From positions 124,001-188,000 of the forward strand of contig NZ_JASJOC010000001.1 of the NCBI RefSeq assembly GCF_030068615.1: DNA of 64,000 bases. The letters run 5' to 3'. The DNA comes from Halostagnicola sp. A-GB9-2. GTDB taxonomy: Archaea; Halobacteriota; Halobacteria; Halobacteriales; Natrialbaceae. This document shows, piece after piece, positions 13,910-60,683 of this stretch. The position numbers were made by a program, and so were the translations under genes. The notes beneath the pieces were generated by a model that saw only the letters and a program-made list of their open reading frames with translations, made no database searches and was not told where the DNA came from. Position 1 is the first letter of the stretch. Every line of letters starts with the position of its first letter.

Positions 13910-14848
13910 CTACGATACGGGCTGTCTAACCGCCAACACGACCAGATCCGAAAACGGTGTATCCGCCTCGCCGCTCCCGCCGGCGTGTTCCGATAGCTCG
14001 CCGAGCGTAAACCGGTGGATCTCCTCCTCGTCGTGGGTTAGCTTCTCGAGTACCAGCGCCTCGAGATCCGGGTCGGCTCCCTCCTCGAGCAGGAACTGCG
14101 CGAGGTCGCCGGGCATTCGGTCGTAGGGCCGGGGAAGCACCAGCGCGTGCCGGCCGTCAACCGTCACAGCACTCGCCAACCGAGCCATGTCGGCCTCGAG
14201 GTCGCCGCTCTTGTGCAACGTGACGAACTCGGTGTCCTCCATCGGCGTTCGGGCCCGGCTCGCGGCCATCTGGAGCGAGGAGATGCCGGGGATGACGCGA
14301 ACCGGAATCTCGGTGGAGTTGCGTTCTATCGCGTCCTGACGAGCGTGCGAGTCAGGGCTCGTCGAGCTTTGCTCGACGGCGTCCTGCTGAGTCTGCGAAG
14401 CAGGGCTCGTGGAAACTCGTTCCACGGCGTCCTGACGAGCGTGCGAGTCAGGGCTCGTCGAGCTTTGCTCGACGGCGTCCTGCACTTTGCCGACGAACTG
14501 GTAACCGGAATGGTTCGGATCGCCCATCGCGACGGCAGTTCCGGACTCGCCGGCCGCGACGCGCCGACCGAACTCCTCGAGGGCGTCGGCCTCGTCCTTG
14601 TAACCGCAGGTCAGCAGGTCGGCGTCGGTGAACTCCTCGACGAACTCCACAACGGTCGTAAAGCCGACGACGACGTCCGCGTCCCGAATTGCCCGGCGTC
14701 CTCGAGGCGTGAGGTACTCCGGGTTCCCGGGGCCGACGCCGACGGCGTAGACGGGTTCGTCCGCGTCTTCGTCGATGACGGGTTCCGAACTCGCCGCAGC
14801 GAACGTCGCCGGATCCGGCCCCGCCTCGAGATCGTACTCGTCGCTCAT
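13910..14848 (-). CDS. cbiE: Cobalt-precorrin-7 C5-methyltransferase CbiE with repeat insertion
   Basis: Tetrapyrrole methylase that methylates C5, partner of CbiT. Signatures are VYAVGVGPGNPEYLTPRG (about 29-46), DADVVVGFTTVVEFV, TAVAMGDPNHSGYQFVGK, RVIPGISSLQMAASR and ALVLPRPYDRMPGDLAQFL, followed by EEIHRFTLGEL. The protein is 312 residues, clearly longer than usual CbiE (about 200-240). Besides a leader of about 28 residues it carries an insertion of some 50 residues between GKVQDAVE and IPVRVIPG, made of three 16-residue repeats. The insertion separates the second and third SAM loops, a surface position, so the enzyme may still fold. Its start overlaps the cbiC stop by 4 bases (ATGA). 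Confidence 0.88.
   Translation of the reverse strand: MSDEYDLEAGPDPATFAAASSEPVIDEDADEPVYAVGVGPGNPEYLTPRGRRAIRDADVVVGFTTVVEFVEEFTDADLLTCGYKDEADALEEFGRRVAAGESGTAVAMGDPNHSGYQFVGKVQDAVEQSSTSPDSHARQDAVERVSTSPASQTQQDAVEQSSTSPDSHARQDAIERNSTEIPVRVIPGISSLQMAASRARTPMEDTEFVTLHKSGDLEADMARLASAVTVDGRHALVLPRPYDRMPGDLAQFLLEEGADPDLEALVLEKLTHDEEEIHRFTLGELSEHAGGSGEADTPFSDLVVLAVRQPVS
14332..14475. repeat. Three in-frame 48-base hairpin repeats inside cbiE
   Basis: Units are 14332-14379, 14380-14427 and 14428-14475. Units 1 and 3 are identical; unit 2 differs at about a quarter of its positions. Each unit forms two hairpins. Hairpin A has arms cctgac/gtcagg in units 1 and 3 but cctgct/agcagg in unit 2. Hairpin B has arms cgtcgagc/gctcgacg versus cgtggaa/ttccacg. 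The changes are paired, so the stems are kept while the encoded amino acids change. A degenerate fourth unit may lie on the low-coordinate side. The 48-base length keeps the cbiE frame. Confidence 0.9.
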
Positions 14849-60294: not shown

Positions 60295-60683
60295 GGATCG
60301 AATGCTTGGTGTATAGACAGGCCAGATTTCCCGAATCGTATTCCGCTTTTCTGACGCCACTGCACACGCTAGGAACGATGAATCCTGGAAACGAAGAGTG
60401 GGTGGCGAAAGGCGTGGGCGAGCGGTGGATCCGTCCTTCGAGGAGTTCGGCGGAGTTGGAGACGAGCAGTACCGGTCAAGACGAGAAAAGCGTCGTAAAC
60501 CGGTATCTCGTATGCGGGGCGGGAGCAACTAAAAGATCCCGGTTGCGGAACCGACTGTCGTTCACCTCACCTATTCTACCTAGAGTCGCGTTCGACCGCT
60601 CTTTCGGTCGATCTGGAATCGCATTCGACAGCTCTTCCGTTCGGTCTGGAGTCGCGTTTCGAACCGTTTTTGAACTGCTTCGG
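60295..60683. other. Non-coding stretch with a 33-base tandem repeat
   Basis: This 389-base gap between the RIO-like kinase and the convergent nitrilase holds no convincing gene. Open frames on both strands are Arg/Ser-rich and look like shadows. The right part contains the tandem repeat listed separately. Confidence 0.5.
60583..60670. repeat. 33-base imperfect tandem repeat, two and a half copies
   Basis: Units start at 60583, 60616 and 60649 with gagtcgcgttcgac, gaatcgcattcgac and gagtcgcgtttcga, each about 33 bases apart with a common gctctt core. A multiple of 3 leaves open a coding origin (11-residue unit around NATPDR or NAIPDR on the minus strand), but no convincing gene covers it. 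Confidence 0.5.

Follow-up and report, generated by a model that had tools for sequence, protein, structure and literature searches.

A 48-bp two-hairpin sequence repeated within haloarchaeal cbiE, probably one of a family of target-specific, in-frame palindromic DNA elements

The cbiE gene of Halostagnicola sp. A-GB9-2, which encodes a cobalt-precorrin-7 C5-methyltransferase, carries three tandem copies of a 48-bp sequence, each of which can fold into two hairpins. The question raised by this locus is what such an array is, how it comes to lie within a gene without breaking its frame, and whether the DNA, the RNA, or the peptide is the entity that is propagated. The gene is located on the reverse strand at 13910–14848 of the window, i.e., the whole 64,000-nucleotide stretch that was analyzed (contig NZ_JASJOC010000001.1, positions 124,001 to 188,000). 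It is recognized by NF004457 (387 bits), TIGR02467, and PF00590 (Pfam TP_methylase), and it forms one run with its neighbors, the genes for a CbiC-like methylmutase and CobN. The insertion comprises 144 bp at 14333–14476 on the reverse strand (KVQSAVEREEPE), and Tandem Repeats Finder assigns it a period of 48 with 3.2 copies at 14331–14482. An earlier note on this DNA had recognized the three-unit array but placed it one base off, at 14332–14475. In CbiE, the array follows GDPNHSGYQFVGKVQDA and precedes the PVRVIPGISS strand. The insertion is missing from cbiE of the same genus, the relatives being without the insert residues, and the inserted segment is predicted to be disordered (pLDDT <50 for residues 132–189; the prediction used 37 aligned sequences, and its confidence overall is moderate). 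No Rfam 15 family matches the window at the gathering score. The window also harbors a separate 33-bp tandem repeat of 2.1 copies at 60586–60655.

The array most probably represents three copies of a haloarchaeal 48-bp two-hairpin DNA element that uses the target GACGCC^GNSGA and makes in-frame 16-residue additions to tolerant loops. All three units are on the reverse strand. Both hairpins of unit 1 (14429–14476; GCCGTCGAGCAAAGCTCGACGAGC CCTGACTCGCACGCTCGTCAGGAC; peptide AVEQSSTSPDSHARQD; 77.2 bits) are perfect. On the basis of the fold and of pair counts, its stem 1 occupies 14453–14476 (GCCGTCGAGC AAA GCTCGACG A GC), while its stem 2 occupies 14431–14452 (CCTGAC TCGCACGCTC GTCAGG). Unit 3 (14333–14380; 73.2 bits) is identical to unit 1, whereas unit 2 (14381–14428; GCCGTGGAACGAGTTTCCACGAGC CCTGCTTCGCAGACTCAGCAGGAC; peptide AVERVSTSPASQTQQD) differs from both. 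In stem 1 of unit 2, a C-G pair is replaced by G-C and a G-C pair by A-T; in stem 2, A-T is replaced by C-G and C-G by T-A, with every one of these changes compensated on the opposite arm. Thus, the two hairpins of unit 2 survive by way of four compensated pairs, as had been claimed, but one apical pair of stem 1 is lost. The accompanying claim that the peptide changes instead holds for stem 2 and the loops, which alone alter the peptide of unit 2; it does not hold for stem 1, where neither arm's changes affect the encoded residues (GTC/GTG, GAG/GAA, TCG/TCC). Because other family members often carry the variant seen in unit 2, the differences within the array need not have arisen in place.

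On the left, the array is bordered by the target or junction motif GACGCC (14474–14479, reverse strand; the D-A codons of cbiE), as judged from empty-site comparison and target statistics, and on the right by a copy of this motif, GACGCG, with a host-like Ala codon (14330–14335, reverse strand), as judged from empty-site comparison. The fold energy of the array lies far below that of dinucleotide shuffles (z −5.2, 0/200), and the exact unit occurs by chance in 0 of 100 shuffles of the window. An origin by chance or as an ordinary low-complexity repeat was considered and is ruled out by the shuffles, the fold z, the species scan, and the covariation.

The unit has the layout GCC GTS GAR CNN NGY TCS ACG AGC (stem 1), followed by CCT NNN TCG NAN RCT CNN NAG GAC (stem 2). 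Of 61 related genomes, 22 contain it by blastn. When a stem 2-based pattern was run over 84,980 species, each represented by one genome, it yielded 76 loci, of which 73 are haloarchaeal; the other three (Rhizobium, Pararhizobium, and Streptomyces) are without stem 1 and are taken as chance matches. A covariance model built from 40 units matches 158 of the 243 genomes of the haloarchaeal order at E ≤ 0.01 per genome, a threshold at which approximately 2 chance matches are expected, and, at E ≤ 1, three genomes rich in copies yield 51, 60, and 30 matches. The collection analyzed consists of 274 units in 186 arrays and is biased in that the search pattern fixes parts of stem 2 and of the loop, such that the conservation of these parts is no evidence. 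Intergenic relatives of like layout are found in genomes G103 (L335–L341) and G092 (L342–L346). In these relatives, both hairpins are perfect, with TCGCTNCGCTC among the loops; they have the GAGC spacer of the coding units and ACC/GACGCC flanks and are present in several near-identical copies per genome. Coding variants of 45 and 51 bp (DAGSENASEPSVADAPED; DADEQSSSSPRSASPRED; SSRPEADDA) share arrays with 48-bp units at L179, L012, L045, L055, L061, L097, and L329–L337 and are in frame where examined. The source genome itself has a second, diverged unit in an MBL-fold/rhodanese gene (L002:1501–1555, G000:C13:18043–18097; EDAAERRSASPASQSQQD). A search of 50,697 phage records gave 0 matches, and no description of the family was found in the open-access literature, subscription journals being outside the scope of that search.

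Comparison with relatives reveals insertions whose lengths are exact multiples of 48 bp. Most members of the GluRS family read LPNA-EEYDEIRMR, which constitutes the empty site, while a few read LPNA-VEPGSTSPDSQARQDA-EEHDDIRMR and are exactly 48 bp longer; filled and empty members occur within one genus. MBL genes can be filled at one site and empty at the other, and the arrays of orthologues differ in 48-bp steps. In line with the comparison proposed in the earlier note, cbiE genes with and without the insertion both exist: 55 of 71 are empty, reading KVQDAVEREDPE or a close form, and 16 are filled with one to four extra units. The note had set two outcomes against its own reading, i.e., unstructured linkers in all cbiE genes and an absence of paired changes from other copies of the unit; neither was observed. 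The cbiE tree calls for at least 12 changes of state, 9 of which are forced by well-supported branches, indicating frequent gain, loss, or allele exchange at a single codon. As the cbiE units are mostly of one stem 2 type (GAC/GTC), an old insertion that is inherited or allele-exchanged, with repeated loss, is likely at this site, rather than many fresh insertions. In GluRS, decayed insertions (L211 in G016 and L207 in G270), in which hairpins are broken or a short stretch has been deleted internally, are apparently ageing copies. At site 2 of the MBL genes (L016, L091, L104, L138, L139, and L143), divergence is lower in the unit than in the sequence on either side; between L016 and L138, the unit shows 0/48 differences, with 11.3% in the flanks.

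Where exact 48-bp insertions are aligned with empty relatives, they sit at GACGCC^GNSG, or GACGCC^GNSGA in its longer form, and all non-kinase insertions follow (G/A/T)AC-GCC or near forms. Among 15 target sites that were hand-chosen as independent, the base following GCC is G in 15 (expected 51%, p = 4e-5), and a G recurs three bases later in 13 (p = 0.017). Written as an in-frame sequence, the target has the form GACGCCGTCGAG. The strict motif GACGCCG(T/A)(C/G)GA occurs 61 times in 200 kb of coding sequence from hosts; 53 of these occurrences are read in sense as Asp-Ala-x-Glu, and 8 lie in the antisense frame. The constancy of the frame is thus mostly explained by a target that already sits in that frame in genes. 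The target resembles the junction between two units, with which it shares approximately 10–18 bp, and the similarity lies on both sides of the insertion point. Since the flanking ACGCC occurs both in the empty site and at the element end, a 5–6 bp duplication is indistinguishable from target similarity.

One frame is open without a stop in all 186 arrays (274 units), and 71 of 71 inter-unit spacings are multiples of 3. Histidine kinases account for approximately three-quarters of the distinct arrays, which there follow immediately after the N-box (ENLFRNAVEHG). The other hosts include CbiE, GluRS, the MBL-rhodanese protein (three sites), TrpC (IGPS), an FMN oxidoreductase, an alpha/beta hydrolase, the VLRF1 release factor, a TGT-C2/PUA protein, and a Rieske protein, and the unit is found in at least 10 unrelated gene families. 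The kinase arrays L030, L134, L145, and L046 follow the catalytic N-box Asn and reach up to 5 units (L145); the orthologous arrays L030 and L134 differ by one unit. In the proposed course of events, haloarchaeal genes nearly always read the target as Asp-Ala-(Val/Asp/Glu)-Glu; combined with a 48-bp unit that has no stop, this reading would cause each insertion to add 16 residues (AVEHGSTSPxSQAxQD type) in a single fixed frame, in loops that tolerate them. The single frame, the conserved AVE and STS residues, and the large share of histidine kinases could also be the mark of a useful protein linker module, DAVEHGSTSPxSQAxQ, expanding by replication slippage and spreading by recombination, for which the palindrome is incidental. 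Such a module is very unlikely to be the explanation, given that the frame follows from the target, that the insert is predicted to be disordered and is patchy among orthologues, and that intergenic relatives of like layout are non-coding. Furthermore, the covariation of silent positions links the two arms of a hairpin and does not extend to the same codons in the following unit.

The complementarity of the arms is kept separately in each hairpin. Covariation across 40 diverse units scores 0.379, versus 0.145 after shuffling (0/500), and collapses when the partners are slid. In 201 unique units, 3015 of 3216 cells are Watson–Crick (94%), although the unit sequences are related and the pairing counts do not represent independent events; the three apical pairs of stem 2 take the form of 13 different complementary triplets. 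For the two stem 1 positions at which changes are silent, pairing between the left and right arms of one hairpin is seen in 150 and 153 of 161 cases (68 and 79 when shuffled), whereas the match of a left arm to that of the following unit, 48 bp away, is at the level of chance (67 vs 66 and 63 vs 74 shuffled). Therefore, codon usage, genome composition, and direct repetition are not the cause of arm pairing. The variant carried in stem 1 shows no association with that in stem 2 (chi-square p = 0.30), which rules out a few frozen subfamilies as the source of the covariation. Templating of a stem 1 arm from the host target, hinted at by L021 and L182, finds no support as a general rule, successive left arms being uncorrelated. 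The expectation that the hairpin is kept is upheld by the abundant paired changes in other copies of the unit. Structure alone, however, is not what is kept: the reading frame is fixed and the DAVE/STS peptide conserved, indicating that protein tolerance and target choice also matter.

Part of this pattern is what quasi-palindrome correction at replication would produce by itself, with neither selection nor mobility, the spread being due to homologous transfer of genes that already carry the unit. The stems change independently, and compensated changes greatly exceed single ones in several orthologous pairs (e.g., 2 compensated and 0 single between L182 and L185, at 10% flank divergence). As the entire explanation, correction carries little probability, because the unrelated host gene families and the intergenic relatives require that the unit has been copied between sites; moreover, mismatches can persist.

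The strong paired changes, the low folding energy of the array, and a transcribed orientation that is always the same would also be compatible with selection on an mRNA hairpin (for stability, translation pausing, or processing), compensatory changes being fixed to keep the RNA fold. The mismatches speak against this improbable alternative. Sense-strand G·U pairs (36) are rarer than A·C mismatches (86) among the 3216 cells, the reverse of what RNA selection would leave, and the RNA part of the earlier note's structural proposal is not supported on this count. In addition, the unit is patchily present among orthologues of one gene, and mismatches persist across Haloarcula-type MBL orthologues. 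At MBL site 2, a C·A mismatch is retained across species (L016, L091, L104, L138, and L139); together with the decaying GluRS copies, it indicates that complementarity is not strictly enforced in place. The 86 A·C mismatches would be G·U pairs in an antisense transcript. Overall, what is propagated appears to be the hairpin as DNA, and neither the RNA nor the peptide.

How the hairpin is moved is a further question. PATEs and 52-bp terminal-only elements of Haloquadratum walsbyi are transposase-free and have near-terminal palindromes and a short targeting sequence (PMC3119063). They resemble the present units in being haloarchaeal, very short, transposase-free, and palindromic, with a short target; PATEs derive from IS605-type ends, whereas here most of the copies studied are intragenic, and no Y1 transposase is found in roughly one in two copy-rich genomes. 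The unit could accordingly be pictured as a non-autonomous IS200/IS605-type element (PATE- or REP-like), with two terminal hairpins serving a Y1 transposase in trans as recognition sites and ssDNA inserted 3′ of the short target. Its two hairpins, fixed 5′ target, fixed orientation, and lack of any target duplication beyond the target itself are in keeping with such an element, as are the strain-specific insertions of the 52-bp terminal-only PATEs (PMC3119063). This origin is nevertheless unlikely: a search for Y1 transposase (PF01797) came back empty in 8 of 15 genomes selected for their many copies, the majority having a completeness of 95% or more; at the 17 Y1 loci searched, model R1 detects no significant unit (best E 0.19); and the target similarity spans both sides of the insertion point.

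Returning to the 48-bp DNA element with its in-frame target, its gain, loss, and changes in copy number may result from hairpins stimulating template switching, or recombination, between the target and the junction of two units, and not from the action of a dedicated transposase. Suggested, less firmly than the DNA hairpin itself, by the junction-like target, the exact 48n lengths, and the precise loss, this route would leave arm complementarity to arise from the copying of whole hairpins, possibly supplemented by templated correction of one arm by the other. Neither a mobilizing enzyme nor active transposition was found in this analysis. It is conceivable, albeit doubtful, that the unit is a transposase-free, self-propagating palindrome in which the junction hairpins provoke template switching into genes harboring a sequence that resembles this junction, and templating within each hairpin keeps the arms complementary while peptide and loops drift. 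If this were true, the target itself would guarantee in-frame insertion.

The units lie in frame in unrelated genes, form hairpins, and have empty orthologues, features that place them in the protein-coding palindromic (RPE-like) class. RPEs are said to have been described by Ogata et al. in 2000 and 2002, and the palindromic coding repeats of Methanocaldococcus jannaschii reportedly by Suyama et al. in 2005. According to two sources (PMC2229807, PMC10969869), the palindromic elements of Rickettsia and Wolbachia are in-frame palindromes in many unrelated protein genes, are also intergenic, and have no known mobilizing enzyme, which is where the likeness to the haloarchaeal family lies. RPEs are approximately 105–150 bp in length, form long stem-loops, and belong to alpha-proteobacteria. 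In contrast, the haloarchaeal unit, compared by description, has 48 bp, two short hairpins, a GACGCC^GNSG target, and tandem arrays; with this length, and with a scan that is haloarchaeal bar the three chance matches, it is not an RPE proper. The M. jannaschii repeats, known here via papers that cite them, are palindromic coding repeats fused into protein genes (PMC2996958, PMC2229807). They share with the present units the nature of archaeal repetitive palindromic DNA in protein genes but belong to a different archaeal lineage.

REP/BIME sequences, including GTAG- and CGTC-tagged families (PMC3733652, PMC12306157), are also short, often dimeric palindromes, and intergenic members are found here too. 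REPs, however, are by definition mostly extragenic, whereas the haloarchaeal units are coding and have a fixed frame, with 186 arrays in open frames notwithstanding the intergenic relatives; no REP-flanked RAYT gene was found. The two internal hairpins and the lack of terminal inverted repeats distinguish the unit from MITEs. The best reading is that of a haloarchaeal target-specific, in-frame palindromic DNA element that would work like RPE, the likeness being one of behavior and not of demonstrated kinship. The idea of a haloarchaeal counterpart of gene-invading palindromic elements, put forward from the cbiE array, is thereby borne out by a dispersed, in-frame family with filled and empty relatives.

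With this family, a large archaeal case joins a class known mainly from Rickettsia and Wolbachia. The haloarchaeal hosts are free-growing and genetically tractable, and by virtue of filled and empty close relatives and 48-bp copy-number steps, the entry and exit of palindromic elements becomes directly testable. The element would also account for the unusual low-complexity stretches (DAVEHGSTSPxSQARQ) inserted into haloarchaeal kinases and enzymes, stretches that could otherwise pass for functional domains. Finally, its several hundred hairpins constitute a natural data set for telling DNA-level from RNA-level selection.
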